DNA of 44,346 nt from Pseudomonadota bacterium (GCA_027624955.1 JAQBTG010000033.1:1-44346); one strand, 5' to 3'. Counted from the first letter of the stretch, positions 2,196 through 44,141 are shown. Translations and numbers: made by a program. The notes: generated by a model from the sequence alone, not told the origin.

Positions 2196-2404
2196 GTTTT
2201 TCTCCTCAAAGCTGTGGGAGCAAATTACCGTGGCGTCGATCCTAGCTAGGCCTATGAGTCGATGCAATATGAACGAAGCTCGTGGTTTGCGTGAGCCGTG
2301 TCATGGTTTGCGAAAGATTGATAGAGTAGCTTTGTCAAATGGCGTTCGCTCCGAGCAGGCTCAGCGCCACCTGTTAGTGACGCTTGATCAGAGGAGAAGG
2401 AACG

Positions 2405-6301: not shown

Positions 6302-6499
6302 TTAAAATCTTCCCAGACGCATGCCCGGATACTAAGCCACTCGCCCAGCTCTGTCAGAGGAATATTGGCGTGCTAAGAAACCCCAGCAGGCATTGAATTC
6401 GACTTTAAAGGCCAAAGCCTGGCCGCCGATTCGGAGGATAAATGCGGGCTGTCTCGATTACCGTAACAATTGACGGCGAATATGCGCTAGAACGCCGCT

Positions 6500-26201: not shown

Positions 26202-26292
26202 GATAGCGATCCTTCTTACATATCGAATCAATTTGAAATTTGAGCATAATCGGACTGCCAGGGCGGGCCAACTGCACGAGAGGTATAAAGCC

Positions 26293-27198
26293 ATGATCGA
26301 CGCGCAAAAGACAGCCGGAGAGAAACGCGCGGCGTTTCGCCAGAAACTCGCGCAAGGCGGGCTCATGCGATTTCCCGGCGCCTTCGCGCCACTGGTGGCG
26401 ATGATGGTCGAACAGGCCGGCTTCGATGGCGTTTATATCTCGGGCGCCGGAATCGCGGCCGAGAAGGGCCTGCCCGATATCGGCCTGACCAGCCAGGAAG
26501 AAGTCGTCGCGCGTGCCCAGCTCATCGCCCGGGTGAGTGATCTGCCGGCGATCGTCGACATCGATACCGGTTTCGGCGACGCGATGAATGCCGCCCGCAC
26601 GATCACGCGCCTCGATGAAATGGGCCTTGCCGGCTGCCATATGGAGGACCAGGTCAGCGCCAAGCGCTGCGGCCATCTCGACAACAAGTTATTGATCGAC
26701 ACGCCCGACATGTGCCGCAAACTGCGCGCCGCCGCCGAAGCCAAACGCGACCCCAATTTCCTGCTTATCGCACGCACCGATGCACGCGCGCCGGAAGGTC
26801 TGGACAGTGCCATAGCGCGCGCCAAGGCTTATGCCGATTCCGGCGCCGATATGATCTTTCCCGAAGCGCTGCAAAGCGAAGCTGAGTTCGCAGCATTCCG
26901 CAACGCCATCGACCTGCCGCTGCTCGCCAATATGACCGAATTCGGAAAATCACCGCTGTTGAGCGCGCCCCAGTTGGAGGCGCTTGGCATTAATATCGTC
27001 ATCTATCCGATGACCGCCATGCGCTTGGCGTTGAAAGCCATTGATGACGGCCTCACCGCCCTAAAAACAAATGACGACCAAGCCGCGCTGGTCGAGCATA
27101 TGTGGACGCGAAGCCGGCTCTACGAGGCGCTCGGCTACGCCGCCTACAATCAATTCGACCAGGACATATTCAATTTTGATCTCGGTGCGAAAGATTAA
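26293..27198 (+). CDS. Isocitrate lyase/PEP mutase-family enzyme, methylisocitrate-lyase-like
   Basis: A 301-residue TIM-barrel C-C lyase. Catalytic Cys126 lies in AKRCGHLDNK, the loop typical of methylisocitrate lyase (PrpB). The Mg-binding Asp89 and Asp91 lie in VDIDTGFGD, and Glu118 in CHMEDQ. It would cleave a 2-hydroxy tricarboxylate (2-methylisocitrate to pyruvate and succinate) or a related substrate such as 2,3-dimethylmalate or oxaloacetate. No prpC or prpD lies in the window, so the methylcitrate cycle is not shown by context. The start is ATG 26293 with GAGAGG upstream. It begins a plus-strand run with CaiB, crotonase and a metallo-hydrolase. Confidence 0.85.
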   Translation: MIDAQKTAGEKRAAFRQKLAQGGLMRFPGAFAPLVAMMVEQAGFDGVYISGAGIAAEKGLPDIGLTSQEEVVARAQLIARVSDLPAIVDIDTGFGDAMNAARTITRLDEMGLAGCHMEDQVSAKRCGHLDNKLLIDTPDMCRKLRAAAEAKRDPNFLLIARTDARAPEGLDSAIARAKAYADSGADMIFPEALQSEAEFAAFRNAIDLPLLANMTEFGKSPLLSAPQLEALGINIVIYPMTAMRLALKAIDDGLTALKTNDDQAALVEHMWTRSRLYEALGYAAYNQFDQDIFNFDLGAKD

Positions 27199-27270
27199 TC
27201 CGCTCGGGTCTCGCGAAGCCGGGCCAGCAGGGCTAAACTGTCCGCCGCAATAGAGCCACGAGAAAATATT

Positions 27271-28470
27271 ATGCCTCTTGATCTCTCCGGACAGGCGCTG
27301 GCGCGCTTTAAAGTTCTCGACCTGACGCGATATCGCGCCGGCCCCACCGCGGCCCGTCAAATGGCGGACTGGGGCGCAGACGTCATCAAGATTGAGATGC
27401 CACCAGCGCCGGGCGAGAACTCCCAGGCAGACCCTGTCAAAGCACGCCACGGGCCGGATTTTCAAAACCTGCACCGCAACAAGCGCAGCCTGACCTTGAA
27501 CCTAAAAGACCCGGACGGCTTGGCGATATTCAAGCAACTGGCTGATGGCGTGGATGTCGTCATCGAGAATTACCGCCCCGACGTCAAACACCGGCTTGGC
27601 ATAGATTATGAGACGCTGAGCGCCACCAACCCGCGCCTGGTCTATGCCAGCATCTCCGGCTTCGGACAGGACGGCCCCTACGAGAAACGCCCCGGGTTCG
27701 ACCAGATCGCGCAAGGCATGGGCGGCTTGATGTCGATCACCGGCATGCCCGGCGAGGGACCGATGCGCGTTGGCATTCCAATTGCCGATCTCAGCGCCGG
27801 AATGTATTGCGCCCTTGGTATAATGGTGGCGCTCCTCGAACGCGAAGTTTCAGGCAAGGGGCAATGGGTGCAATCCTCGCTCCTCCAGGCACAAATCTCG
27901 ATGCTCGATTTTCAGGCCGCGCGCTGGCTGGTCGACCATGAAGTGCCGCCCCAAGCCGGCAACAATCATCCGACCAGCATCCCGACCGGTGTGTATCCGA
28001 CCACCGACGGCCATATCAATATCGCCACGGCTGGCGGTGAAATATATGAACGTCTCTGCCGCGCGCTCGGCGATGAGGAACTGATCACCGATCCCAACTA
28101 CGCCACCGGCAAGGCACGCTCCGATAACCGTGACGCCTTGAACGAGCGCTTAAACGCGCTCACGCGGGATAAATCGAGCGCGGAATGGGTGCAAATTCTC
28201 AACGATGCCGGTGTGCCGTGCGGGCCGATCTACGATATCGACGAAATGTTCGACGATCCGCAGGTCAAGCATCTTGGCATGGCGGCGCCGGTCGATCACC
28301 CCACCCTCGGCCCAATCGAAATCGTCAGCCAGGCCACTTCGCTCAGCCGCACGCCGTTCCGCATCCATTCAGCGACGCCGGATCTGGGCCAGCACACGGA
28401 CGAAATATTGAACGGCCTTGGTATCAATACAGCAGATATTTCCAGCCTGAAGGAGCGTGGCATTGTCTAA
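27271..28470 (+). CDS. CaiB/BaiF-type (class III) CoA-transferase
   Basis: A 399-residue family III CoA-transferase that moves CoA between carboxylic acids. The catalytic aspartate is Asp144 in RPGFDQIAQGMGG. The N-terminal FKVLDLTR..AGP strand, HRNKRSLTLNLKDPDG and ENYRPDV segments are typical. The ATG is preceded by a weak GAGAAAA site. It lies 72 bases after the lyase gene, and its end overlaps the crotonase gene. The overlap suggests it activates the acid that the crotonase then handles. Substrate unknown. Confidence 0.9.
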   Translation: MPLDLSGQALARFKVLDLTRYRAGPTAARQMADWGADVIKIEMPPAPGENSQADPVKARHGPDFQNLHRNKRSLTLNLKDPDGLAIFKQLADGVDVVIENYRPDVKHRLGIDYETLSATNPRLVYASISGFGQDGPYEKRPGFDQIAQGMGGLMSITGMPGEGPMRVGIPIADLSAGMYCALGIMVALLEREVSGKGQWVQSSLLQAQISMLDFQAARWLVDHEVPPQAGNNHPTSIPTGVYPTTDGHINIATAGGEIYERLCRALGDEELITDPNYATGKARSDNRDALNERLNALTRDKSSAEWVQILNDAGVPCGPIYDIDEMFDDPQVKHLGMAAPVDHPTLGPIEIVSQATSLSRTPFRIHSATPDLGQHTDEILNGLGINTADISSLKERGIV

Positions 28471-29272
28471 AAGCCAGCAAACGCCTTACGGCGACAAGAT
28501 GATCGCCGAGAAAGACGGCGCCGTCGGCTGGATGATCTTCAACAATGTGGAACGGCACAATGCGCTGTCGCTCGACATGTGGGAGGCCATTCCGCACATT
28601 CTCGACCAATTTGAGGCAGACGCTGAAGTTCGCGTTATCGTCCTCAAGGGTGCCGGCGAGAAATCCTTTATCTCAGGCGCCGATATTTCAGAATTCGACA
28701 AGAAACGCGCGAGCGCCGAAGCGGTCGCGCAATATGACAACATCGCGCATGAGGCGAGCGAGCGGCTGATCCACGCGGCCAAGCCAACCATCGCCATGAT
28801 ACGCGGCTATTGCATTGGCGGCGGCCTTGGCGTCGCACTGTCCTGCGACATGCGGATCGCGAGTGTTGGCTCGCGCTTCGCTATCCCGGCGGCCAAGCTT
28901 GGGCTGGGATACCGTGTCAGTTCGTTGCAGCCGTTGGTCGCCCTGATCGGACCCGCCTTCGCCAAGGAAATCATTATTACAGCGCGTCAATTTAATTGCA
29001 CCGAGGCGCTTGCCATGGGGCTGATTAATCGTGCCGTTGCCGCGGATGAGTTGGAGACCTACACCGCCGATTATTGCGCACGCATAGCCGCGAACGCGCC
29101 GCTCACCATGTTGGCGGCCAAACGGACGGTCGATGAAATTGCCCGAGCGCCGAGCGACCTCAACCGCGAACTTTGCGAACGCCTCGTCGAAGAATGTTTT
29201 TCGAGCGCGGATTATGTCGAGGGGCGGCGCGCCTTCATGGAAAAACGTAAGCCCCAATTCGAGGGGCGTTAA
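28463..29272 (+). CDS. Enoyl-CoA hydratase/isomerase-family (crotonase) protein (1)
   Basis: A 269-residue crotonase. The acyl-CoA oxyanion segments FISGADISEF (about 69-78) and CIGGGLGVAL (about 117-126) are intact. Of the two catalytic glutamates of rat hydratase, the Glu144 equivalent is Ala143, while Glu169 (in FAKEIII) matches Glu164. A single glutamate is the isomerase-like state, so double-bond isomerase or another crotonase reaction is more likely than hydration. The TTG at 28463 was chosen because AAGGAG ends seven bases upstream; a GTG six bases earlier lies too close to that site. It overlaps the CoA-transferase gene by eight bases. Confidence 0.85.
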   Translation: MSKSQQTPYGDKMIAEKDGAVGWMIFNNVERHNALSLDMWEAIPHILDQFEADAEVRVIVLKGAGEKSFISGADISEFDKKRASAEAVAQYDNIAHEASERLIHAAKPTIAMIRGYCIGGGLGVALSCDMRIASVGSRFAIPAAKLGLGYRVSSLQPLVALIGPAFAKEIIITARQFNCTEALAMGLINRAVAADELETYTADYCARIAANAPLTMLAAKRTVDEIARAPSDLNRELCERLVEECFSSADYVEGRRAFMEKRKPQFEGR

Positions 29273-29283
29273 CGGAGTCAATT

Positions 29284-30075
29284 ATGATCGTCGAACAAAT
29301 CTGGACCGCCAACTCCTACCGCAACTTTAACTATCTGATCGCCTGCCCGGAGACGGGAGACGCGTTGGCCATCGATCCACTCGATCACCAAAAATGCTTG
29401 TCTGCCGCCAAAGAAAAAGGTTGGAACATCACCCAGGTGGTGAACACGCATGAACATGGCGATCATACCGGCGGCAACAAGCAGGTTATCGCTGCCACAG
29501 GCGCCAAGCTGCTCGCCCATGCCAACGCCAAGGGAAGCATCCCCGGTATCGACCGTGGTCTCGGCGCCGGCGACATCATCAAAGTAGGCAAGACGATTGA
29601 GCTGGAATCTCTCGATACGCCGGGTCACACCATGAGCCATGTCTGCCTGCTGTCGCATAGCGATACCCCGGCGCTGTTCTGCGGCGATACCCTGTTCAAC
29701 GCCGGTGCCGGCAACTGCCACGGGGGAGGCCATCCGGCGGAGCTATACCAGACGTTCACCGGTCAGTTGGCGATTCTGCCGGATGAGACACGGGTTTATC
29801 CCGGCCACGATTACATCGCCAACAATCTCGAATTCACGCTGGATCGGGAGCCCGGCAACGCGGCCGCCAAAGCACTGCTCGCCGATGTCGCCAATCAAGA
29901 CCCGGATGATCCGCTGGTGTCGACCCTGGCGATCGAGAAAGAGGTGAACACGTTTTTCCGCCTGCATAACCCGTCGGTCATGGCGCGCCTGCGCGAGAGC
30001 TTCCCGGACCTACCGGCGGAACTCGATGCCAAGACGGTGTTCGTCAAGCTCCGGGAATTGCGCAACGACTGGTAG
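29284..30075 (+). CDS. Metallo-beta-lactamase-fold hydrolase, hydroxyacylglutathione-hydrolase (glyoxalase II)-like
   Basis: A 263-residue two-zinc hydrolase. Metal ligands lie in THEHGDH (His56, His58, Asp60, His61), then His115, Asp135 and His175. The C-terminal region (about 180-263) has the HAGH-type helical cap ending in KLRELRNDW. The segment usually reading CGR in glyoxalase II is GAGNCHGGGHPAELY here, so the thioester may differ from S-lactoylglutathione; hydrolysis of a CoA or glutathione thioester is likely. The ATG has ACGGAG seven bases upstream and follows the crotonase stop by 11 bases. It is convergent with the dehydratase gene across six bases. Confidence 0.85.
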   Translation: MIVEQIWTANSYRNFNYLIACPETGDALAIDPLDHQKCLSAAKEKGWNITQVVNTHEHGDHTGGNKQVIAATGAKLLAHANAKGSIPGIDRGLGAGDIIKVGKTIELESLDTPGHTMSHVCLLSHSDTPALFCGDTLFNAGAGNCHGGGHPAELYQTFTGQLAILPDETRVYPGHDYIANNLEFTLDREPGNAAAKALLADVANQDPDDPLVSTLAIEKEVNTFFRLHNPSVMARLRESFPDLPAELDAKTVFVKLRELRNDW

Positions 30076-30081
30076 GCAGCG

Positions 30082-31065
30082 TCACGCCGTCTCAAACAGC
30101 GCGTGCGCCGCGAAGCTGGCGAAATCGATGTTGGCACCGCACACGATGACACCGACCCGTTTGCCCTGAAGGCGTTCGCGCAACGGCCCGAGCAAAGCCG
30201 CGGTCGCGGCGGCACCGGCGGGCTCTACCGCCAACTTCATCTCGGAGAACAGCAAGCCCATCGCGCGGCGCATCGCGTCATCGTCGATCAGGACAATTTC
30301 GTCGACAGTCTGTTGGCAGAGGGCGAAGGAATAGGGCAAGGCATAGGGCGCGCCGAGGCTGTCGGCAATGGTGCGCACTTTGTCGATGGTTTGCGGCGAG
30401 CCGGCCCGGAAGCTGCGTGACATGCTGTCCGCTCCTTCGGGCTCAACGCCATATATTTGACAGGCCGGCTGCACCAATTTGAAGGCACTGGCGACACCGG
30501 CGCACAAACCGCCGCCGCCGATCGGTACAATCAGCGTGTCCAACTGCGGTGCCTGGCGGGCGAATTCCAGTCCCAATGTCGCGGTACCGAGCGCCGTTAA
30601 TTCACCTTCGAAGGGATGCACGAATGTGCGCTCCTCCGCCTTTTCGATCTGCTTGACGGTGTCGAAGGCCTGATGGACGTCTTCGGCGAAGATGACTTCT
30701 GCGCCGTAAGCCCGGCATTGCGAAACACGGAACGGATTGGCACTTTTCATCATCACAACTTTGGCGCTGGCACCAGAACTTTGGGCGGCAAACGCTGCTG
30801 CAATGGCGTGATTGCCGGCACTGACGGCGGTCACTCCCTTGGCCAATTGTTCATCGGAGAGGCTGAGAAGATTGACCAGGGCGCCGCGCGCCTTGAAGGT
30901 CCCGGTGTGCTGGAACAGTTCAAGCTTCAATATCACTTCGGTATCCACGCCTAGAATATTGTTCAACTGCGGGCCGTGCCAATGGTGAATTGGCGTCGCC
31001 ACCACTTTACCTTTGATCCGTGCTGCCGCGGCCTCGATCGCCGCCAAAGTTAGTGCCGCAACCAT
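30082..31065 (-). CDS. Threonine/serine dehydratase-like PLP enzyme
   Basis: A 327-residue fold-type II PLP enzyme that likely deaminates a hydroxy-amino acid (threonine, serine or 3-hydroxyaspartate) to a 2-oxoacid. PLP Lys58 lies in HTGTFKARGA and the phosphate-binding loop in PIGGGGLCAG. The regulatory ACT domain of biosynthetic IlvA is absent, so this is the short catabolic type. It is the last gene of the eleven-gene minus-strand run, ten bases after the enol-lactonase-like gene, with GGTAAG before the ATG. A fit with the rest of the run would be a 2-oxoacid product. Confidence 0.88.
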   Translation of the reverse strand: MVAALTLAAIEAAAARIKGKVVATPIHHWHGPQLNNILGVDTEVILKLELFQHTGTFKARGALVNLLSLSDEQLAKGVTAVSAGNHAIAAAFAAQSSGASAKVVMMKSANPFRVSQCRAYGAEVIFAEDVHQAFDTVKQIEKAEERTFVHPFEGELTALGTATLGLEFARQAPQLDTLIVPIGGGGLCAGVASAFKLVQPACQIYGVEPEGADSMSRSFRAGSPQTIDKVRTIADSLGAPYALPYSFALCQQTVDEIVLIDDDAMRRAMGLLFSEMKLAVEPAGAAATAALLGPLRERLQGKRVGVIVCGANIDFASFAAHALFETA

Positions 31066-31075
31066 GTTGCTTACC

Positions 31076-31867
31076 CTACCCGTGCGCCGTCAGAAAATCC
31101 TGGACCGCGGCGGTAAAGGCTTCTGGCTGCTCTAAATTGGAAAGATGGGCCGCGGGGTCAAGCTCGACATATCGTGCATTGGCAAGAACCGACTGCATCG
31201 CGCGCATGCCATCGGGCGGCGTGGCGATATCCTGCGCCCCGGCGATAAGCAGAACCGGTTTGTCGATTGCCGAGAGACGCGACATATAATTGATATTTTG
31301 TACAGCGCGCGAGCAGCCGGCATAACCCTGCGCCGGCGTGGTCCGCACCATCTCGCGCACATCTTCGAGGAAGGCAGGAGCGGTGGCACGCAGGTCTTCG
31401 GTGAACCAGCGCGCAACCGTGGTCTCGACGAGCGGCGCCATGCCTTCTTTAAGCGCCAGGGCGATGCGATCATCAAATATAGCGCGAAACTCCGGCGTCG
31501 CGTCGGCGCGGGAATTGCAGATCGTCACACTCAGCAATCGCTCTGGATGGTTGAGGCCAAGACCCATCGCCGTCATACCGCCCATGGAGAGACCGAGAAA
31601 ATGACAAGCATCGATGCCGTGTGCCTGCATCAGGGCGGCGGCGTCATCGGCGAGCAGGTCGAAATCATAATCTCCGGCTGGCGCATCGCTCTGGCCATGG
31701 CCGCGCTGGTCGTAGCGCAGCACCCGGTAATCCGTGGCTAACACTGCAGTTTGACGGTCCCACATGGTGAGATTGGTCGCCAATGAATTGCTCAGCATCA
31801 GCCACGGCGCGCCTTCCCGGCCGTCGATACGGCAATTGAAGGTGATGCCGTTTGCTTGGGTTTTCAT
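31076..31867 (-). CDS. Alpha/beta hydrolase, 3-oxoadipate enol-lactonase (PcaD)-like
   Basis: A 263-residue alpha/beta hydrolase. SNSLATNLTMWD near residues 26-37 is the typical PcaD oxyanion-loop region. Nucleophile Ser94 lies in LGLSMGGMT, and the acid is Asp in LLIAGAQDIATPP. The family hydrolyses the enol-lactone of 3-oxoadipate in aromatic catabolism, but many relatives act on other lactones or esters, and no other pca gene is in the window. The start is ATG 31867 with GGAAG upstream, ten bases past the VOC stop; an earlier ATG at 31900 would overlap that gene. Confidence 0.82.
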   Translation of the reverse strand: MKTQANGITFNCRIDGREGAPWLMLSNSLATNLTMWDRQTAVLATDYRVLRYDQRGHGQSDAPAGDYDFDLLADDAAALMQAHGIDACHFLGLSMGGMTAMGLGLNHPERLLSVTICNSRADATPEFRAIFDDRIALALKEGMAPLVETTVARWFTEDLRATAPAFLEDVREMVRTTPAQGYAGCSRAVQNINYMSRLSAIDKPVLLIAGAQDIATPPDGMRAMQSVLANARYVELDPAAHLSNLEQPEAFTAAVQDFLTAHG

Positions 31868-31877
31868 AGCTCTTCCG

Positions 31878-32384
31878 TCAAGGCTTGTGCGGTTGGTCAT
31901 AGTTAGACCAGGTTTGTTCGTAGCTATGTGAGCTGAGTTCGATGACATTGCCCCATGGGTCTTGGCAATAGCACACTTTGCACGGCTTATCGGGCCACAG
32001 TTTCCATACTTTAGAGCGCTGCTTGCCGCCGCTCTCATCGATGCGTTTGGCCAATTTCTCGATTTCCGGGTCGGTGAAGCAGATGTGGAAAATTCCGGCC
32101 TTCCAATATTCGAAATTATCCTCCGGCACCACGCTTTTGGGGTTGGTGAACTGGAACAACTCGATGCCTACACCATCGCCTGTCGCCAGATGTGCGAGCT
32201 TCATCTCGCCAAAGCCTGGGCCAAAAATATCGGCAATGATCTCGGCGAAATATCCGCCGTCGTCGGCCGCCGCGATAGGTGCCATGACGACCGTACAGCC
32301 GAACAAATCCTGATACCATTTTACCGCCGCGTCGAGATCGGTCACCGTGATGCCGACATGATTCATGGTGCGCGGATAGACCAT
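31878..32384 (-). CDS. VOC-family protein with complete metal site
   Basis: A 168-residue glyoxalase/bleomycin-resistance-fold protein with two beta-alpha-beta modules. The four metal ligands expected in the family can be assigned: His9 in MNHVGI, Glu75 in GIELFQF, His100 in FHICFTD and Glu149 in NVIELSSH. So it is a functional metalloenzyme candidate (lyase, isomerase, epimerase or dioxygenase), unlike the VOC protein at 1272. A strong AGGAGG lies five bases before the ATG. It sits between the enol-lactonase-like and crotonase genes in the minus-strand run. Relatives near CoA pathways include methylmalonyl-CoA epimerase, but this is not specific enough to claim. Confidence 0.85.
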   Translation of the reverse strand: MVYPRTMNHVGITVTDLDAAVKWYQDLFGCTVVMAPIAAADDGGYFAEIIADIFGPGFGEMKLAHLATGDGVGIELFQFTNPKSVVPEDNFEYWKAGIFHICFTDPEIEKLAKRIDESGGKQRSKVWKLWPDKPCKVCYCQDPWGNVIELSSHSYEQTWSNYDQPHKP

Positions 32385-32411
32385 TACTACCTCCTTTTCT
32401 GGTTTGCTACG

Positions 32412-33209
32412 TTACGAACCGCCGCCTTTGAAATTTGGCGCGCGTTTTTCAAGAAAAGCATCTACTGCCTCATGATGGTCTTTGCCCATCGCCAGAACGC
32501 CATAATTTGAGGCTCCGATATCGAGGCTTGTTGACAGATCAGTCGCCTGCCCGGCGCGGACGGCGCGTTTAATCGCGCGGATCGATTGTGTCGGCCCGGC
32601 GGCAAGGCGCTCCGCCAGGGCCCGTGCAAACGGCATCAGCTCGTCGTCGGGCAGTGCCTTGTTGACCAGACCGATGCGTTCGGCTTCGTCGCCATCGATA
32701 AAATCGCCGGTCCACAGCATTTCCAACGCTCGCGCCTTGCCGATAATGCGCGGCAAAAAATATGCGCCGCCAGCGCCCGGCAGCAGAGCGAGCTTGACGT
32801 AGGTTTCAGCGAATTTTGCCGACCGCGCGGCGTAGCGCAGGTCGCACATCAAGGCCAAATCGAGGCCGGCGCCGGTCGCCGCGCCGTTAATCGCGGCAAT
32901 CACCGGCTTGTCCATATTTTCAAGAATGCGGGGGATACGGTGGACATGGCCGATCAGCTCGTCCTTGCGTTCTTGCGGGCCGCTTTCCTGTCCCTGCTTC
33001 ATCAGTTCATCGATATCCCCGCCGCTGCAAAATGCCTTGCCGGCGCCGGTGATCAGAACCACATGCACGTCGGCGCGCGCGGCGCTTTCTTCGAGACGCG
33101 CTGCCCATTCATCGATCATGGCCAAGGTGAAGGCATTGCGCCGCTCGGGCCTATTCAACGTGATGGTGGCGACACGATCCGCCACTGCAAACAAAATATC
33201 TCCAGCCAT
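32412..33209 (-). CDS. Enoyl-CoA hydratase/isomerase-family (crotonase) protein (2)
   Basis: A 265-residue crotonase of the usual length, with NRPERRNAF (19-27), the oxyanion segment FCSGGDIDEL (60-69) and NGAATGAGLDLAL (108-120). As in the other crotonase of the window, the Glu144 position of rat hydratase is not Glu (Tyr137), while Glu163 in ALEMLWTG matches Glu164. The resemblance is to PaaG-type isomerases as much as to hydratases. GGGGAG lies upstream of the ATG. The gene lies five bases after the acyl-CoA synthetase stop and belongs with it and the two acyl-CoA dehydrogenases in a CoA-ester oxidation module. Confidence 0.87.
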   Translation of the reverse strand: MAGDILFAVADRVATITLNRPERRNAFTLAMIDEWAARLEESAARADVHVVLITGAGKAFCSGGDIDELMKQGQESGPQERKDELIGHVHRIPRILENMDKPVIAAINGAATGAGLDLALMCDLRYAARSAKFAETYVKLALLPGAGGAYFLPRIIGKARALEMLWTGDFIDGDEAERIGLVNKALPDDELMPFARALAERLAAGPTQSIRAIKRAVRAGQATDLSTSLDIGASNYGVLAMGKDHHEAVDAFLEKRAPNFKGGGS

Positions 33210-33214
33210 GTAAT

Positions 33215-35326
33215 TTACGCTCCCCTGCTTTCACATGTCACGATGAGCGCGTCGAGCGCCATCAGCCCCTCGCCTTCCTCATAAACCACCACCGGGTTGA
33301 GGTCGAGTTCTTGAATGCGGTCTCGGTTGCGCGCGGCGAAGAAACTGAGTTGAACCAGGAGGTCCACGAGCGCCTCTATATCGGCGGACCGCCTCCCGGC
33401 GCCACCGCTAAGCCGGGCGAACCCGCGAAGTGAAACGATCAACGCACGCGCGCGTGCGACGCCGAAAGGCGCCGGCGCCCACGCCACATCGCCAGCAATC
33501 TCTACGTCCGTGCCACCGAAGCCGACCATGACGAGCGGGCCGAAGGTTTCATCGCGCGCGATGCCGGCAATCATCTCAACGCCTTTGGGTGCCATCTTTT
33601 GCACCAACACGCCGTCGAGCACGATTTCATCCGGCAGGTTCGAGACCTGCTCGAATGCGCGCCGCACGTGCCGCTCGCCTTCAACATTAAGCGCCACGCC
33701 GCCGGCGGCGCTCTTATGGGTTAGCTGTGGAGATTGTGCCTTTAACGCTACCGCGCCCTTCAGTGCTTCAGCGGCAGCAACTGCGTCATCAGCAGCCTGA
33801 ACGAGTCGCGCTGCGGGCATGGCGATACCGAGCGCCGCCAGATAGGGCGCGGCGGACCATTCCGTCAGCACCGCCTTGCCCTCAGGCAGGGCTGGCGTTT
33901 GCAGCTCCGCAGGCAATGTATCGGCGGCGCGAAGTTCAAGAAAGGCGGCGTAATCTGCCATTGCCTGGAGCGCCCGGGCGTTGCCTCGAACCGAGGTGTA
34001 GCACGGTATTCCCGTGGCAGAGAGATGCGCCAAGGCATCGCCATGCGGCATGGTGTAGGAGTGATACATCAGCGGCTTTTCCCAGCGCGCTTGAATGCGC
34101 GTGAGCTGCGCTTCTTCCGCGGCAATCATTGTTGCTTCGGCCATCGATGCGGCGACGATCACGCTGTCGATTTGCGGCGAATCATAGAGCCGCTCGATGG
34201 CAGCAACATTGCCGCCCTGCTCCAGCGCTTGCGCGGTGATGTCCACCGGATTCGAAACGCCGCCATAATCCGGAATGAAGCTACGCAGATCGGTCTGCAC
34301 ATCGGTATCTAATTCGGGCACGCTCAGGCCCTGCCGTTCACAGGCATCGGCCAGCCACACACCGACACCGCCGCTGATTGTCACGATACCGACATTTCTG
34401 CCCTTCGGGAGCGGACAGGAAGTGAACGCAGCGGCGATATCGAGTAATTCGTCCTGATCGTCCGCGCGGATCACCCCGGCGTGACGAAATACCGCGTCAT
34501 AGGCGTGCGCGCCGCCCGTCAGGCTGCCGGTGTGCGACAGCGCGCCGCGCCGCGCCGCTTCCGAGCGGCCGAATTTTACCACGATCAACGGTTTGCCGAG
34601 CGCTGCCGCCTTCTCCGCTACGTCAAGAAATCCTGTGGCGCCGCGCAGTTGCTCGATTAAGAGGACAATGGCGCCAACCTCTTCCTTCTCCAACAGATGC
34701 TTGGTGAAATCGAGCAATCCCAAATGGCTCTCATTGCCGGTGCCCACCACATGGCTAAATGCGATGCCGCGCCGGATGCCCCGGTTATAGATCGCGAAGC
34801 CGAGACCACCGCTTTGCGAGACTATGGCGACGCGCCGCCGTGAGCCCGCGCCGGTGCGTGGAGTGTTGTCCAATTTGGTGCCGACGCTAAAGCTGGCGTT
34901 GAGGTTTATGCCGGTGTTGAGGAAGCCGGCGGTGTTGGGACCGCAAACGGCAATGCCGCGTGCCACCGCGATATCGCCGATTTGCGCTTGCAATTGCGCC
35001 GCGGCGTGACCGCTTTCGGCAAAGCCCGAGCTGAATATCACTGCGCCCCGGATGCCTGCGTCGGCGCATTCCTCTAGGGCAGCAGCCACGCGCTCGGCCG
35101 GGATCGCGATCAGCGCGAGATCAACCGGTTGGCCGATGGCGGCGATCGAGGCATAGGCGCGAAGGCCTTGGATTTCCGCATGCGCTGGATTGACCGGATA
35201 GATCGGGCCGCCATAGCCGCCGGCGAGAATCGCCGCGAGTATGCGCCCGCGTATTTTTCCAGCGTCCGGTGAGGCGCCGATAATCGCGATCGCGCGGGGC
35301 GACAGGAGGGCGTCGAGTGCGCTCAC
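33215..35326 (-). CDS. NDP-forming acyl-CoA synthetase (fused alpha-beta, ATP-grasp)
   Basis: A 703-residue acyl-CoA synthetase of the ADP-forming type, which makes a CoA ester from an acid, ATP and CoA through a phospho-histidine. The CoA-binding Rossmann domain comes first (SPRAIAIIGAS, residues 9-19), then two succinyl-CoA-ligase-like domains with the phospho-acceptor His265 in GALSHTGSLTGG. The C-terminal ATP-grasp domain (about 490-700) has VALKAQSPQLTHKS and LDLNPVVV. The start is taken as GTG 35326 with GAGGGA seven bases before it, 11 bases after the upstream stop; the frame is open further upstream only inside the neighbour. It supplies the substrate for the adjacent acyl-CoA dehydrogenases. 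Confidence 0.9.
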   Translation of the reverse strand: MSALDALLSPRAIAIIGASPDAGKIRGRILAAILAGGYGGPIYPVNPAHAEIQGLRAYASIAAIGQPVDLALIAIPAERVAAALEECADAGIRGAVIFSSGFAESGHAAAQLQAQIGDIAVARGIAVCGPNTAGFLNTGINLNASFSVGTKLDNTPRTGAGSRRRVAIVSQSGGLGFAIYNRGIRRGIAFSHVVGTGNESHLGLLDFTKHLLEKEEVGAIVLLIEQLRGATGFLDVAEKAAALGKPLIVVKFGRSEAARRGALSHTGSLTGGAHAYDAVFRHAGVIRADDQDELLDIAAAFTSCPLPKGRNVGIVTISGGVGVWLADACERQGLSVPELDTDVQTDLRSFIPDYGGVSNPVDITAQALEQGGNVAAIERLYDSPQIDSVIVAASMAEATMIAAEEAQLTRIQARWEKPLMYHSYTMPHGDALAHLSATGIPCYTSVRGNARALQAMADYAAFLELRAADTLPAELQTPALPEGKAVLTEWSAAPYLAALGIAMPAARLVQAADDAVAAAEALKGAVALKAQSPQLTHKSAAGGVALNVEGERHVRRAFEQVSNLPDEIVLDGVLVQKMAPKGVEMIAGIARDETFGPLVMVGFGGTDVEIAGDVAWAPAPFGVARARALIVSLRGFARLSGGAGRRSADIEALVDLLVQLSFFAARNRDRIQELDLNPVVVYEEGEGLMALDALIVTCESRGA

Positions 35327-35337
35327 GATAGATTCCC

Positions 35338-36342
35338 TCAGCCACCTGATCCGGTGACGTCCGGCCACAACGCCGCGCCGCCGCGCGCCGCGACCTCTGC
35401 GCCGAGACGAGAATTCCACTCGGCTTCGTTGCCGAATTCCTCGCGCCACGCCCACAACGCCTTGGTGTAGCGGTGCAAGTCATGCTCTTCGGTGAAGCCG
35501 ATGGCGCCGTGTAGCTGATGGGCGATGGCGGCGGCCTCACCCGCCGCTTCGCTGGCAGCCGCCTTGGCCGCCGCAACGGCGAGAAAATCAGGCGCGCCAA
35601 CCGCCGCTTCGACGGCCGCGCAGGCCGCCGCAACATGCCCGGCAAGGACCGCCAAATGATGCTGCACCGCTTGGAATTTGGCGATTGGCCGTCCGAATTG
35701 GCGGCGCTCGCCAGCATATTGCACCGTCATGGCAAGGATCCTCTCCAGCGCGCCGGCGATCTGCGCCGCGCGCAACAGCGCGGCCTGTTCTTGCACTACC
35801 GCCGGGGATACACCCGCGACGGCATGAACGGATGGAGTGTTATCGAAACGCACATCGTCGCGCGGCTCGCAGGCGATGTTCTGCCCTGGCGCGATATGTG
35901 CGCCCGCCAACTTGACAAGGGCCAAAGTGCCGCCCTCCGGACTATCCGAAATTACCGCGATATGCGCCGCATGGCGGGCCCAGGGAACGCGGCGTGCGGT
36001 GCCGGATAGAGAGCCGTTGGCAGAGATTGCGATAGGTTCGGCGGCATCCGCCACGGCAATCGTCAGCGCGCCATCCGGCACAGCAAGGCCGGCGCCCTCC
36101 AACAGAGAGACCGCAAGAATTGTTTCCGGCAGGGGAATCAGCGCGGCAAAGCGACCGGCGACCTGGCAGATGGCCACCGCGAATTCCGGCATGTCGGCGC
36201 GCTCGAAGCCTGCCGCGGTGACAGCGCGCCATAATGCGTCAGGCCATTCGCCAGCTTCAACGCGGCGAAACAGCGCCGGCGTTACATGATCGGTGAACAG
36301 CCGCTCCGCCGATTCAGTGAGAAGTTCTAACTCTGCGTTCAT
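35338..36342 (-). CDS. Acyl-CoA dehydrogenase-family protein, short partner subunit
   Basis: A 334-residue acyl-CoA dehydrogenase-fold protein, shorter than the usual about 380. The C-terminal helical part is typical (GERRQFGRPIAKFQAVQHHLA, then QLHGAIGFTEEHDLHRYTK). The N-terminal and middle parts are reduced, and the SEPxxGSD flavin-loop motif is not seen. Its ATG overlaps the stop of the full-length dehydrogenase gene (ATGA, four bases). Such tight pairs of one normal and one short gene are known from alpha2-beta2 dehydrogenases in actinobacterial steroid side-chain breakdown. A heteromeric enzyme here is a reasonable inference. Confidence 0.85.
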   Translation of the reverse strand: MNAELELLTESAERLFTDHVTPALFRRVEAGEWPDALWRAVTAAGFERADMPEFAVAICQVAGRFAALIPLPETILAVSLLEGAGLAVPDGALTIAVADAAEPIAISANGSLSGTARRVPWARHAAHIAVISDSPEGGTLALVKLAGAHIAPGQNIACEPRDDVRFDNTPSVHAVAGVSPAVVQEQAALLRAAQIAGALERILAMTVQYAGERRQFGRPIAKFQAVQHHLAVLAGHVAAACAAVEAAVGAPDFLAVAAAKAAASEAAGEAAAIAHQLHGAIGFTEEHDLHRYTKALWAWREEFGNEAEWNSRLGAEVAARGGAALWPDVTGSGG

Positions 36343-37511
36343 CGGAGGCCGAGCCCGCGCGCGATGATCGAACGCATGATCTCCGTGGTGCCGCCGCGCA
36401 AGGTGAAGGACGGCAGCCGGAGGAGCGCTTCCGCCAGCATGGCGGGGAAATCCGCCGAATTTCCGCCTGCGGTGATTGTAGGTTGAACGGGCAGCACGGC
36501 GCGCGCGGTTTCCACCACTTCGCGCTCGAACTTGTTGCCGAGTTCCTTGACGATGGCGGCTTCGACGTCAGGCGACTCGCCCGCCTGCAGCATCGCTGCA
36601 ACAGAAAGGGACATGCGCCGAAGCGTCCACAGCCTAGCGGTCAAGCGCCCGAGCGCCTCCGCCTGGCGGGCGTCAGGCGCGGGGCCGATTTCATCGACGA
36701 GTGCCTGGAAAATATGAAAATTACTGAGAAAGCGCTCCGGGCCACTGCGCTCATAGGCCAGTTCGCTGGTCACCTGCCGCCAACCCTCGCCTTCCTGGCC
36801 GATCAATCTGTCTAAAGGAATCTCAACATTGTCGAAGACGACTTCGTTGAACTCATGCGCGCCCAGCATGTTGACGATCGGATTGATCGTCACGCCGTCC
36901 TGACGGAGATCGATGAGAAACTGGCTGAGGCCGCCGTGACGGTCCTCGCCGGCATCTCCGGTACGGCACAATGTGATCATGTAATGATTGAGATGGGCAT
37001 TGCTGGTCCACACCTTGGCGCCGTTCAAGCGCCAGCCATGGGCGGTGCGCTCGGCGCGGGTGCGGACGGATGCGAGGTCGGAGCCTGAATCCGGCTCACT
37101 CATGCCAATCGAAAAAAAGCATTCACCAGCGGCGATGCGGGGAAGCAGCTCCGCGCGCTGGGATTGTGAGCCGAAGCGCAATAGGAGCGGGCCGCTTTGC
37201 CGGTCGGCGATCCAATGGGCGAAGACCGGGGCACCAGCCGCCAACAATTCCTCGGTGACGACATAGCGCTCGAGATGAGAACGCTCGCCGCCGCCATAAT
37301 GCTTCGGCCAGGTCATGCCGATCCAGCCTTTGTCGGCGATCTTGCGGCTGAATTCGGGCGAAAAACCGGCGCCGAAATCGCTGTTCGGAAGCCAAGGTTC
37401 CGCCGCCGATGATTCGGCGAGAAAGGCGCGCAATTCGGCGCGCAGTTCGGCTACCTCGTCGGGCAGGCGGGGCGGCGGAAAGCGCAGATTATTGGCGCTC
37501 AAGTGCGGCAC
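36339..37511 (-). CDS. Acyl-CoA dehydrogenase, main subunit
   Basis: A 390-residue FAD-dependent acyl-CoA dehydrogenase introducing an alpha-beta double bond into a CoA ester. Visible motifs are MTWPKHYGGG (about 66-75), FSIGMSEPDSGSDLA (FAD loop, about 132-146), KVWTSNA, and the C-terminal LRGGTTEIMRSIIARGLG. The position of the mammalian catalytic Glu before G-T is Gly here, so the base lies elsewhere or in the partner subunit, as in other members with GGT. The start is GTG 37511 with AAGGAG six bases upstream. It is coupled to the short dehydrogenase by ATGA and lies 57 bases after the hydroxyacid dehydrogenase gene. Confidence 0.9.
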   Translation of the reverse strand: MPHLSANNLRFPPPRLPDEVAELRAELRAFLAESSAAEPWLPNSDFGAGFSPEFSRKIADKGWIGMTWPKHYGGGERSHLERYVVTEELLAAGAPVFAHWIADRQSGPLLLRFGSQSQRAELLPRIAAGECFFSIGMSEPDSGSDLASVRTRAERTAHGWRLNGAKVWTSNAHLNHYMITLCRTGDAGEDRHGGLSQFLIDLRQDGVTINPIVNMLGAHEFNEVVFDNVEIPLDRLIGQEGEGWRQVTSELAYERSGPERFLSNFHIFQALVDEIGPAPDARQAEALGRLTARLWTLRRMSLSVAAMLQAGESPDVEAAIVKELGNKFEREVVETARAVLPVQPTITAGGNSADFPAMLAEALLRLPSFTLRGGTTEIMRSIIARGLGLR

Positions 37512-37568
37512 GGAATACTCCTTCTATCGCGTCAGAATGCGCGGGAAGCCGCCTCGCCGCAACTATGA

Positions 37569-38621
37569 TTAAGCGCCGAATCGCGCCTTAAGCGCCGCCA
37601 TTTTGCCTTGCCAATCGGCGTTGTTGGTGATGCTGCGGTTGACCAATCCGCGCGGCTCTGCGCCCTTCATGGTCGCGAATACTGCGGCAACATCAGCGGC
37701 GCCGATTCCGGCGAAACATTCATCCGTCCAGCACAGGCCATGCGGCGTGAGAATGACGTTCTCAAGCTGAAGCAGTGGATCGTCAGCTTCAGGTGGCTCC
37801 GGATCAAAAACATCGAGGCCGGCGCCAGCGATGGCACCAATCTGCAACGCCTTGGTCAACGCCTTTTGATCTACCGTCGGCCCGCGCGATGTATTGATTA
37901 GAAAGGCCGTCGGCTTCATCAGGGCGATTAACTCAGCGCTTACGATTTGATAGGTTTCGTCGTTGTACGGGCAGTTGACCGCGAGAACGTCCGACTCTCT
38001 TGCCAGCGTCTCTTTGTCGACCATGTGCACACCCAACTCTTTCGCCACGGCGGCGTCGGCATAGGGATCATGGGCGATGAACTTCATATCGAACGGCATC
38101 GCCATGCGGAACATCTCGGCGCCGATATTGCCGATCCCCATGGTGCCAAGGGTTTTGCCGACCAGACCGACACCCATATGGTCGATCTTCTTAGCAAAGC
38201 CTGCCGGCCCCTGGCGGGTCAGTTTGTCCTTGATCAGGAGCTTGCCGGTGCAGGCCAGCATCAGCGCGATAATCGACACCGCTACCGGCCGGCGCACGCC
38301 GTCCGGGGTGATGGTGAGCGCGATGCCGTTATCGGAACAAGCCGCTACATCGACGGTGTCATAGCCGACGCCGAAACGGGCGACATGGGCCAAGCGGCCG
38401 TCCGCCGGGACGCTCGCACGGTCAAAGCGCTGGCCCAACAGAATGAGCGCGTCATGGCCGGCCAATTCGGCGGCCGAGACAGGCCCGTCTCGGCTTTGCA
38501 AATATTGCCACTCGACATTCGCCATATCGTCGAGCGGGGTCATATCGAACATCGGAAAGGCCGGCGAACCATCAGGCTTAATGAAATCACTGCTGACGGC
38601 GATACGGAAATTATCCGCCAT
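37569..38621 (-). CDS. D-2-hydroxyacid dehydrogenase (NAD-dependent)
   Basis: A 350-residue D-isomer-specific 2-hydroxyacid dehydrogenase, reducing a 2-oxoacid or oxidising a D-2-hydroxyacid. The Rossmann motif is G162-x-G164-xx-G167 in GTMGIGNIGAEM. Catalytic Arg246 lies in NTSRGPTVD, Glu275 in VFDPEPP and His294 in LTPHGLCW. The DP motif after strand B (AHDPYAD) lies in the position that selects NAD. The start is ATG 38621, two bases after the aldolase stop, with AAGGG about nine bases upstream. Next to an HpaI aldolase, the natural role is handling a 2-oxoacid released by that aldolase (for example pyruvate, glyoxylate or tartronate semialdehyde-type products). Confidence 0.9.
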   Translation of the reverse strand: MADNFRIAVSSDFIKPDGSPAFPMFDMTPLDDMANVEWQYLQSRDGPVSAAELAGHDALILLGQRFDRASVPADGRLAHVARFGVGYDTVDVAACSDNGIALTITPDGVRRPVAVSIIALMLACTGKLLIKDKLTRQGPAGFAKKIDHMGVGLVGKTLGTMGIGNIGAEMFRMAMPFDMKFIAHDPYADAAVAKELGVHMVDKETLARESDVLAVNCPYNDETYQIVSAELIALMKPTAFLINTSRGPTVDQKALTKALQIGAIAGAGLDVFDPEPPEADDPLLQLENVILTPHGLCWTDECFAGIGAADVAAVFATMKGAEPRGLVNRSITNNADWQGKMAALKARFGA

Positions 38622-38623
38622 GA

Positions 38624-39424
38624 CTAACGCCCTTTCCGCTTGCGGCCGCCTTTGCAGGTGGCGCGTAGTTTGTCGGCACCCGCTTGCATGGTGGCTTGCA
38701 ACATCCACACATCGCCAGAATGGCAGATAAAATCGAACCCCTGCTTGAACAGGGCGCCCCCTACTTTGGCATCGGGTACCAAACGACCGAGGGATTTGTC
38801 ATACTTCTTGCATGCCGCCACGATCTTGCGGATCGCCGCCTTGAACTTTGGGTGGTCGAATTGCCCGGCGATGCCCATATCGGCGCTGAGATCAAAATGG
38901 CCGATCCACATGAGGTCGACACCCTTCATCGCGGCGATGGCTTCGGCGTTTTCCACGCCTTCCTCTGTTTCAATAAGGGCGCAAAAAGCCGTATCGCGAT
39001 TGGCGTCCCTCAGTTTCTTCATCACTGGGCCGGGCGCATAGCGGTCATGAGCGATTTGTAGCGCCACGCCGCGCCCGCCCTCGGGCGGATATTTGATAAA
39101 GCTGAGCAAACGTTTCACTTCTTCCGGCGAGCCAACCATCGGGAAGATGACGGCGCTGGCGCCAATATCAAGCACGCGCGCGGCATGGTGATATTCCTTG
39201 GACGGCGGGCGGACGATGACCGGCAAATCCGCCGCCTGCATGTAGCGCAAAACTTGCTTGATATCGCCGATGCTGAAGCCGCTATGCTCCATATCAACGA
39301 AAGCGAAATCGCATCCCGATGCCTTGAGGATTTGCCCGATTCCAGGTGTATTGAATTCGACCAAAAATGTTCCAACCTTGAGGCGGCTATGCTTTGTCAA
39401 ATTTTTGAACGCTGAATCAGCCAT
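38624..39424 (-). CDS. HpcH/HpaI-family class II aldolase
   Basis: A 266-residue TIM-barrel class II (metal-dependent) aldolase. Base His47 lies in VDMEHSGFS, pyruvate-binding Arg72 in IVRPPS, and metal ligands Glu152 in ALIETEEG and Asp178 in IGHFDLS. It splits a 2-oxo-4-hydroxy acid into pyruvate and an aldehyde, or a citramalyl-like substrate. The C-terminus is unusually basic (KGGRKRKGR). It lies 34 bases downstream of the ABM gene and two bases before the hydroxyacid dehydrogenase gene. Pfam family is secure; substrate is open. Confidence 0.9.
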   Translation of the reverse strand: MADSAFKNLTKHSRLKVGTFLVEFNTPGIGQILKASGCDFAFVDMEHSGFSIGDIKQVLRYMQAADLPVIVRPPSKEYHHAARVLDIGASAVIFPMVGSPEEVKRLLSFIKYPPEGGRGVALQIAHDRYAPGPVMKKLRDANRDTAFCALIETEEGVENAEAIAAMKGVDLMWIGHFDLSADMGIAGQFDHPKFKAAIRKIVAACKKYDKSLGRLVPDAKVGGALFKQGFDFICHSGDVWMLQATMQAGADKLRATCKGGRKRKGR

Positions 39425-39458
39425 TTGCTTTTTCCCTTTATGTTGTTGTGTCGAGTTT

Positions 39459-39758
39459 TCAGGCGTCGTTGCTGACGCGAAATTTCGTGAGTTTGCGGTC
39501 CGTCACCAGGCCGCTTACGCGGTCGCTGAAATCCTTGAAATGTGTGGATTGCAGATGTTCCTGGAACGCCGCTTCGTCGTCATAGGTCTCGTAGAGCGTG
39601 ATGCGGTTTTCTTCCTTGTTGGGTATCAGAACATCGAAGCATTGGCAGCCCGGCTCCTCGCGTTTCGAGGCCTCACCGTTTTTTAGGACTTCCTGGTGAA
39701 AAATGTCGAAGCTGCCTTCGAGCAGTTCGAATTCGACAATAATGGCAAAACGACTCAT
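39459..39758 (-). CDS. ABM-family (antibiotic biosynthesis monooxygenase-like) small protein
   Basis: A 99-residue ferredoxin-like-fold protein of the ABM/YgiN family. Visible are the first strand FAIIVEFELLEG, the central EEPGCQCFDVLI and the RITLYETYDDEAAFQEHLQSTHF stretch, with His68 and His73-type residues that line the pocket in relatives. Members act as cofactor-free oxygenases, isomerases or haem-degrading enzymes; YgiN oxidises quinols. Its ATG overlaps the stop of the upstream lactonase-like gene (ATGA), so it is translationally coupled and probably works on the same substrate or on a sugar-derived product. Catalytic function remains open. Confidence 0.88.
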   Translation of the reverse strand: MSRFAIIVEFELLEGSFDIFHQEVLKNGEASKREEPGCQCFDVLIPNKEENRITLYETYDDEAAFQEHLQSTHFKDFSDRVSGLVTDRKLTKFRVSNDA

Positions 39759-41761
39759 GCCCCCTCCAACTCAATGCGTAAAACTGCGTATGCGCCGAGG
39801 TCGAGGGCAGAGGCGTCGCCAAGCGAGCCGCGATCAGCGGCAAAGGCGGCCGGCTCGCACACGGCAGTTACAAAATTACTCTCATCCAACCGTCCGATGC
39901 GCGCAGCACCGGCGGGCAGGCCGGCGATCGTCACCTGTTGCGGCTCCGGTGTCAGATTGGCGAGCCACATCAGCGCGCCGTTAGCGGTGCGGTAGGCCAC
40001 GCCCAAAATCTTATCCGGCGCAGACGTCTCCAGGTCGAGCATTTCAGAGGTGCTTGCGCCAGCCATGGCAGCGACGATATGGCGCAGCGGAAACACCCAG
40101 CCACCATCACCACTCACAGTGTCATCTCCGCGCGCAGCGGCCAAATCATCATACCAAGGTTGCGGATGCGCCATTTTGCGATAGGCGAGGCCAAATTCAC
40201 CGACCGCCGCGCCGAGGCTCACGGCTTCCACTTCGCCCGCCGCCATACGCGCGACATAGCCAAGCGTAAAGGCGGAGCCGGCCAAGGCGCGGTGGCGAGG
40301 CTCCTGCTGGTTGAACGCCATGCGGATATTGGCCTGATTGTCGAAGGTGCTGGGGCCATAGGGATTGTAGCGCATGCCGATGGCGCTCGGGCCGACGCGA
40401 TAAGGCTTGCCGTCTGACATGGCGCGCACCGAGCCGATGATTGACGGCAAGGATTGCAGGGTTTCCATCACCGAGCGGTCGTCTACTTCATGCACCACGG
40501 CCGAGGTCGTGTGCGAGATAAAATCGTAGAGATCGGCGCTTGGGTGGTTGCGGTTCATTTCGGTAAAATTAGTCAGCACACCGCCGCCGAGTGCAACGCC
40601 GGGAAAGGCCTTGCGCGCCGCGCCGTAGGTTTCCTCGAAGCTCGGCACGCCAAGCGCCGCGAGAGTTTCCAGGGTGAAATCCATGAGCCGGGCCTGCGCC
40701 ACGATCACCGCGTCCGGCTTGACCCCCGCCGCCGCAATGGCGCTGGCGGCATCGCCCATCTCCGCATCCAGCGGGCGCGCGCAGGGTGCCACAATCTCGA
40801 CCACCAATTCTGCCTGCAGGGCATCGGCCAGCTGTTGGCAGGCGGATAAATCGGCGCGTGCTTGATCGGCGCGGTATTCGGCGATAAGCAATTGCGGGCC
40901 GATATCGCGCAACAGATCGAGCGCGTCCAAACTCTTGCGGCCAAGATCGGCCGGCACGCCGATGCCGATGCGCGGCATTTTCTTGCCGCTGCCGGCGCCG
41001 AGCGTGACCTTTACCGCTGCATCACTGCTTGTGGCTGAGCCCTTCGCGGTGCCGTCAAACGTCAGCGCGACCGTCTGGTCAAATTCACTGCCGCCGGGAA
41101 TGACATAGGGGAAAGGCAGCGACAGCGGGCGGTAATAGGTCTTGTAGGACGCATCTGTCCAATTGCGCTGGTCCTCACACTCCCACGCATGTTCGCCCTC
41201 CATCCGGCATGTCACGCGGAGGCCCGGCGCCACTTCATGGCTGATCGCGCGCATGTCGAAAAACGGCTGCAACGGCATAACATGATCAGGGAAAATCGTC
41301 TCTTCGGCGCTGCCATCGACATGCAGGATGGTGCAGGGTTGCCCGGCGACGCCTTCGACCGCATGCAGAATGACAAAACCAGTCCTGTTGGTTTCAAAAT
41401 CGCTCCCGGTGCGGGCCGCGACGTTGAATTCTAGGCCGCCCGACGCCGAACCGGTGATCTCGGCATGAAAATTTATCGCACCATTGGCTTCGTCGACCGC
41501 GGCGTCGTAGGAAATTCGGAAATCAATCACTCCCTCTTCTACAGAGAGATTGGAAATTGCCGGGTGAAAGGTCTGCCAGCCTGGACCGCGCACGACAAAG
41601 GCGATACCGCGTATGGCTTCATATCCGGCCATCCGCACATACCGCAATTTTCCCGCTTCGAGTTCGACGGATAGCGGACCGGCGCTGAGGGTGCGTATTT
41701 CCGCCCGCGGTTCTTCTGTTCCGAACAGCCTGATCGCTCTAGTCGGAGGCGTAAGGGCCAT
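39755..41761 (-). CDS. D-apionate lactonase-family-like protein (three-domain, TIM-barrel centre)
   Basis: A 668-residue protein. Its N-terminal beta domain begins RLFGTEEP and continues with AGPLSVELEAGKLRYVRMAGYEAIRG. The middle part (about 265-560) reads as a TIM barrel (RIGIGVPADLG, LLIAEYRAD, AELVVEIVAPCARP, PDAVIVAQ, VALGGGVLTNFTEMNR). A C-terminal beta domain (about 565-668) follows. From memory this matches the D-apionate lactonase (ApnL) family of sugar-lactone metabolism; I could not confirm it by search. There is no signal peptide. The ATG has GGGAG seven bases upstream. It is the first gene of the eleven-gene minus-strand run, 53 bases downstream of a perfect inverted repeat. The downstream genes do not include the usual apiose-pathway enzymes, so its lactone may differ. 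Confidence 0.65.
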   Translation of the reverse strand: MALTPPTRAIRLFGTEEPRAEIRTLSAGPLSVELEAGKLRYVRMAGYEAIRGIAFVVRGPGWQTFHPAISNLSVEEGVIDFRISYDAAVDEANGAINFHAEITGSASGGLEFNVAARTGSDFETNRTGFVILHAVEGVAGQPCTILHVDGSAEETIFPDHVMPLQPFFDMRAISHEVAPGLRVTCRMEGEHAWECEDQRNWTDASYKTYYRPLSLPFPYVIPGGSEFDQTVALTFDGTAKGSATSSDAAVKVTLGAGSGKKMPRIGIGVPADLGRKSLDALDLLRDIGPQLLIAEYRADQARADLSACQQLADALQAELVVEIVAPCARPLDAEMGDAASAIAAAGVKPDAVIVAQARLMDFTLETLAALGVPSFEETYGAARKAFPGVALGGGVLTNFTEMNRNHPSADLYDFISHTTSAVVHEVDDRSVMETLQSLPSIIGSVRAMSDGKPYRVGPSAIGMRYNPYGPSTFDNQANIRMAFNQQEPRHRALAGSAFTLGYVARMAAGEVEAVSLGAAVGEFGLAYRKMAHPQPWYDDLAAARGDDTVSGDGGWVFPLRHIVAAMAGASTSEMLDLETSAPDKILGVAYRTANGALMWLANLTPEPQQVTIAGLPAGAARIGRLDESNFVTAVCEPAAFAADRGSLGDASALDLGAYAVLRIELEGA

Positions 41762-41873: not shown

Positions 41874-44141
<2,268 letters not shown>

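Follow-up and report, generated by a model that had tools for sequence, protein, structure and literature searches.

An eleven-gene run headed by an ApnL-like lactonase splits into two adjoining modules, each conserved on its own

Does a tightly packed run of eleven genes, which begins with a relative of the D-apionate lactonase ApnL and ends among enzymes of acyl-CoA oxidation, encode a single catabolic pathway, as the initial annotation had proposed? The run lies on the minus strand of the window, i.e., the whole stretch of 44,346 nucleotides that was analyzed, from a genome assembled into 84 contigs (3.58 Mb). All eleven open reading frames were recovered (Table 1); in the order of transcription and with the likely starts, they are separated by -4, 34, 2, 57, -4, 11, 5, 27, 7, and 10 bases, and most starts are preceded by a purine-rich, Shine-Dalgarno-like sequence. 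Starts shorter than the longest frame were set for the D-2-hydroxyacid dehydrogenase (D2HDH, ~38621), the acyl-CoA synthetase (ACD, ~35326), and the PcaD-like hydrolase (~31867). Such spacing, from -4 to 57 bases, would allow one transcript to cover the eleven genes. A promoter and terminator scan returned 8 promoter-like sites against 4.6 expected and 23 terminator-like sites against 13.3, mostly inside genes, and was given no weight. Only 7 bases separate the end of the run from that of the convergent GloB gene.

Table 1. Genes of the run and its convergent neighbors (positions in the window)
Feature	Position	Strand	Evidence
ApnL-like lactonase, module A, 668 aa	39755..41761	-	NF049900 547 bits
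ABM-fold protein, 99 aa, possibly isomerase	39459..39758	-	Pfam ABM, weak LsrG-type match
HpaI/HpcH class II 2-oxo-acid aldolase, module A	38624..39424	-	PF03328
D-2-hydroxyacid dehydrogenase (D2HDH), module A	37569..38621	-	Pfam 2-Hacid_dh + 2-Hacid_dh_C
Acyl-CoA dehydrogenase subunit a (ACADa), module B	36339..37511	-	domain/profile matches; family-wide
Acyl-CoA dehydrogenase subunit b (ACADb), IpdE2-like, module B	35338..36342	-	domain/profile matches
ADP-forming acyl-CoA synthetase, module B, GTG start likely 35326	33215..35326	-	domain/profile matches
Crotonase/enoyl-CoA hydratase, module B	32412..33209	-	domain/profile matches
VOC/glyoxalase-type protein, TIGR03645-like, module B accessory	31878..32384	-	domain/profile matches
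PcaD-like alpha/beta hydrolase, module B accessory	31076..31867	-	TIGR02427 256.0 bits
PLP-dependent threonine/serine-dehydratase-type enzyme, module B accessory	30082..31065	-	
PrpB-like, CaiB CoA-transferase, enoyl-CoA hydratase, GloB; convergent neighbors outside the run	26167..30075	+	
Whole run, eleven genes	30082..41761	-	ORF check of the window

Much of the initial annotation stood. The close packing of the eleven genes recurs as the same set in sister genomes, the family names agree with the domain and profile matches, and the run was rightly described as catabolic, ApnL-like, co-conserved, and devoid of an apiose kinase, isomerase, or RuBisCO-like gene. One refinement concerns the CoA ligase, which is ADP-forming and succinyl-CoA-synthetase-like, not AMP-forming. 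The single pathway from lactone through aldolase to CoA-dependent oxidation was not supported; the run instead comprises two sets of genes, each conserved independently of the other, that lie end to end and are joined in three genera. The first, module A, contains the ApnL-like lactonase, the HpaI-type aldolase, and D2HDH, usually with ABM; the core of the second, module B, consists of the two acyl-CoA dehydrogenases, the ADP-forming ligase, and the crotonase.

Among 60 genomes searched, including that of the window, 16 carry an ApnL-like gene, 15 of them from the window's family and one (G058) from another family of the class. An HpaI orthologue adjoins this gene in 14 of the 16; the exceptions are G004, where the locus runs into a contig edge, and G058, which has an ApnL-like gene of a different, RbsB-type class. 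The arrangement is not due to chance, as other members of the window's genus share the gene order with 64-92% identity. The order is retained at high identity in genus g1 (G001, G002, and G003), and the joined order also occurs in genera g3 (L022) and g6 (L026, L027, L028, and L126), with some genes missing. The joining of the two modules in g1, g3, and g6 may reflect shared regulation or a looser link between them.

A scan of one genome each from 84,980 species yielded at least 80 loci with ApnL relatives, the best 80 of which were compared; among the named relatives, metagenome bins of Alphaproteobacteria predominate. Within the fetched flanks of these best 80 loci, HpaI is present in 29 of the 55 loci that lack an RbsB-type binding protein and in none of the 25 that have one (p = 7.5e-7, with counts not corrected for relatedness), and D2HDH follows the same division (28/55 versus 0/25). 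The HpaI-linked loci are spread over several separate clades of the ApnL tree. In 25 of the best 80 loci, D2HDH is immediately preceded by HpaI on the same strand; 17 of these loci are outside the window's family, and there no CoA genes accompany the pair. Outside the family, a sugar ABC importer frequently accompanies module A, and in some loci OtnK, OtnC, or OtnI does: in L057, the module A set is followed by OtnK, OtnC, and OtnI, and in L044 and L083, by OtnK and OtnC. The Mesorhizobium row consists of GntR, ABM, HpaI, D2HDH, a binding protein, two permeases, an ATPase, and the ApnL-like gene, and such rows have no further enzyme in common. A search of open-licence papers for a lactonase-aldolase-dehydrogenase gene set returned nothing matching, and the recurring set thus seems to be undescribed as far as these papers show.

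The ApnL-like protein matches NF049900, the profile of D-apionate lactonase, with 547 bits against a cut-off of 750; among eleven members scored, only that of Sinorhizobium (L103, 853 bits) lies above it. A profile search for a solved ApnL structure gave just three weak matches (E 0.058 or worse), all to unrelated proteins. The model predicted from 49 sequences (mean pLDDT 92.7) has the TIM-barrel arrangement of glycoside hydrolase clan A, and its residues 246-668 match structures of GH79 (Z 27.1, rmsd 3.6 over 375 residues) and of GH30 and GH51 (Z 24-26). In enzymes of clan A, strands 4 and 7 each end in a catalytic glutamate. In contrast, no conserved Asp or Glu occurs among the 49 sequences at 351-358 or 454-464, the strand ends as placed by predicted secondary structure, not residue superposition, so the ApnL-like protein differs from GH79, GH30, and GH51 in lacking the acid/base and the nucleophile. 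A clan-A fold without these glutamates would fit a non-glycosidase role, and a glycosidase function, raised by the predicted GH79/GH30 fold, was dropped for the same reason. Residues conserved elsewhere in the barrel are E322, E401, N403, R404, H424, D427, R464, N475, and R480. Asp 359 and Lys 361, which follow strand 4 and are common in the superfamily, are absent from the window's sequence, and its substrate may therefore differ from that of the superfamily; Leu occupies position 359 in eight rows, matching by count alone the rows from the window's family.

The aldolase (PF03328, 113 bits) retains its metal-binding and catalytic residues, with the His, Arg, metal-binding Glu, and Asp in the motifs DMEH, IVRPP, IETEEG, and GHFDLS, as in the class II pyruvate aldolases GarL, RhmA, and HpaI. 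Against the named equivalogs, it scored 140.6 versus 368.8 bits for HpaI and lower for GarL and RhmA, and no cut-off was reached. The run also differs from those systems in containing no acid-sugar dehydratase, the partner of HpaI here being a D-2-hydroxyacid dehydrogenase. The latter has motifs for the Arg, Glu, and His of catalysis, and its use of NAD is suggested by an Asp. Two HpaI paralogues in the window's genome (L128 on contig G000:C35, 62%; L129 on G000:C19, 54%) each lie beside a hydantoinase-B gene, a pairing also seen in L023, L134, and L135; this context was considered as a guide to the substrate and gave no clue. The HpaI orthologue at 7726-8523 of G003:C101, in a metagenome assembly, contains one in-frame TAA.

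Genes of tetronate metabolism lie beside both classes of ApnL-like gene. The route for D-erythronate through DenD, OtnI, OtnK, and OtnC is established (PMC10580937 and work cited there). In the best 80 loci, an ApnL-like gene accompanies a D-erythronate dehydrogenase in 15 of the 25 RbsB-type loci (362 bits in L059, against a cut-off of 325) and OtnK in 10 of the 25 (599.5 bits in L068, against 350); L031 and L086 also have OtnC and OtnI, and L086 holds all five genes in one row. Both classes would therefore point to four-carbon sugar acids. ABM genes adjoin HpaI in other loci and OtnC-OtnK in L044 and L133, the latter (5537-7720 on G022:C8) in a genome of another family with no ApnL match, which fits a role for ABM in four-carbon sugar-acid metabolism. 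None of DenD, OtnI, OtnK, and OtnC is among the eleven genes of the run; elsewhere in the window's genome, DenD and OtnI are encoded on C19 and two copies of OtnK with OtnC on C7, all above curated cut-offs, one OtnK copy having an internal TAG. Within the family, the association of ApnL with OtnK (8/10 versus 1/5, p = 0.09) was not significant.

We consider it about an even chance (roughly 0.5) that the run combines a module A pathway for a sugar-acid lactone, probably of tetronate type or a close relative, with an independent module B. The route that we infer, including its substrate, the order of its steps, and the direction of each reaction, would begin with the opening of a small aldono-1,4-lactone, probably a tetronate-type one (D-erythrono- or threono-lactone) or a close relative, by the ApnL-like enzyme. 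D2HDH would then oxidize the opened acid at C2, and cleavage of the resulting 2-oxo acid by HpaI would give a short aldehyde together with pyruvate or hydroxypyruvate as the C3 oxo-acid. ABM may convert this 2-oxo acid to its 3-oxo counterpart, which would feed the Otn kinase/decarboxylase route, whose genes lie elsewhere in the genome. Opening, C2 oxidation, and aldol cleavage require no additional enzyme and agree with the Mesorhizobium row and its four enzymes. Compared with the Otn pathway, where lactonase relatives stand in a row with D-erythronate dehydrogenase, OtnK, OtnC, and OtnI (PMC10580937), D2HDH would replace the dehydrogenase and HpaI would perform the cleavage. Against this reading, genus g2 lacks OtnK and OtnC although it carries module A, and HpaI would yield formaldehyde if it cleaved a C4 2-oxo acid. 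HpaI-type aldolases can work with hydroxypyruvate, and erythrose is among the short hydroxyaldehydes that they take in synthesis (PMC7610986). A bolder version is put forward tentatively: a widespread, undescribed route, non-phosphorylating and dehydratase-free, in which ApnL-like opening and C2 oxidation by D2HDH would lead to hydroxypyruvate-type HpaI cleavage, served by a dedicated sugar ABC importer in many Alphaproteobacteria and wired to an acyl-CoA oxidation operon in the window's family.

Alternatively, HpaI could act first. An imported C7 3-deoxy-2-ulosonate of heptulosonate or heptulosarate type would be cleaved to pyruvate and a C4 aldehyde or acid, and the C4 unit would pass as a lactone through ApnL and D2HDH to tetronate and 2-oxo-tetronate and thence into the Otn route. 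This would explain the presence of HpaI with Otn genes in L044, L057, and L083 about as well, and the acceptance of erythrose in synthesis (PMC7610986) agrees with it; however, no aldose dehydrogenase was recognized in module A, and we regard this order as unlikely.

A single linear route, in which the lactone is opened and cleaved by HpaI and one fragment is CoA-activated and oxidized by the acyl-CoA dehydrogenases and crotonase, would account for the tight packing and for the joined order retained in g1, g3, and g6. However, ACADa is present in 20 of 21 genomes of the window's family, including five with no ApnL match (G005, G008, G009, G012, and G014), which are 67-94% complete, so that incomplete assembly may explain some of the missing matches. 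Most genomes keep ACADb, the ligase, and the crotonase around ACADa wherever the contig permits, and GloB and ECH2 flank module B in other genomes too. In genus g2 (G006 and G011), ACADa and the ApnL-like gene lie on different contigs; module A there has its own MalK-type importer, whose binding protein has no close counterpart in the window's genus. Within the window's own genus, G005 (L115, G005:C44) has a row of an ABC importer, ABM, ACADa, ACADb, ligase, crotonase, VOC, PcaD, and PLP genes that holds no lactonase, HpaI, or D2HDH; the PLP gene is also found in g6. The solute-binding protein of this importer belongs to family 3, in which amino acids are common ligands. G005 (86% complete) also gave no OtnK, OtnC, OtnI, or DenD matches while keeping ABM and module B, and it looks as if the lactonase-HpaI-D2HDH set and the Otn/DenD genes were jointly lost. 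Module B is thus an independent, family-wide acyl-CoA oxidation operon directly downstream of module A. Acyl-CoA dehydrogenation would not be required for the fragments expected from the aldolase, namely a small aldehyde and either pyruvate or hydroxypyruvate. Together with the wide occurrence of module A apart from CoA genes, these points make the single pathway quite improbable. The ACADa tree groups each genus, and the ACADa and crotonase trees leave the order of genera unresolved, fitting one or several joining events. In its adjacent dehydrogenase subunits, CoA ligase, and crotonase, module B resembles the heteromeric IpdE1-IpdE2 and PimC-PimD types, from which its ADP-forming ligase differs. 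The PcaD-like protein exceeds the TIGR02427 cut-off of 255.85 bits marginally, and no protocatechuate pathway genes lie within the run.

True D-apiose catabolism, with a D-apionate lactonase and with D2HDH and HpaI replacing the known later steps, is the most doubtful reading: the NF049900 match is strong (E 4.6e-164) and apionolactone is chemically a branched tetronolactone, but the score falls short of a cut-off that the Sinorhizobium protein passes, and the DUF1537-type kinases in the genome are OtnK. The oxidative D-apiose pathways (Carter et al. 2018, as cited in PMC6302742) likewise employ an ApnL-family lactonase that opens a furanose-type aldonolactone, whereas the run's protein is below the ApnL cut-off and is followed by HpaI and D2HDH; apionate oxidoisomerase, 3-oxo-isoapionate kinase, and a RuBisCO-like gene are all missing from the run. 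Although annotation of the ApnL-like family derives from apiose work, most loci adjoin HpaI-D2HDH or D-erythronate/Otn genes, and many sugar-acid operons would be misannotated if the apiose name were copied across the family. Within the run, it is the lactonase-HpaI-D2HDH module that deserves following; with its importer it forms a small system whose substrate could be found directly through the solute-binding protein, which has 543 aa (for example at 3632-5263 of L023) and orthologues in Mesorhizobium.

Directly upstream of the ApnL-like gene, positions 41874-44141 of the window encode a sensor histidine kinase with a DivJ/PdhS-type kinase domain, whose further domains we take, from reading the sequence, to be CHASE2-like; such a gene also adjoins the ApnL-like gene in G002 and G003. 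Elsewhere in the window, the product of 2384-3544 presumably resembles a copper-containing nitrite reductase, judged by its sequence alone, and that of 6500-8875 is a DEAD-box helicase-like protein with near-identical repeats of the KPYEKHKGAGDGTR type at its C-terminus.
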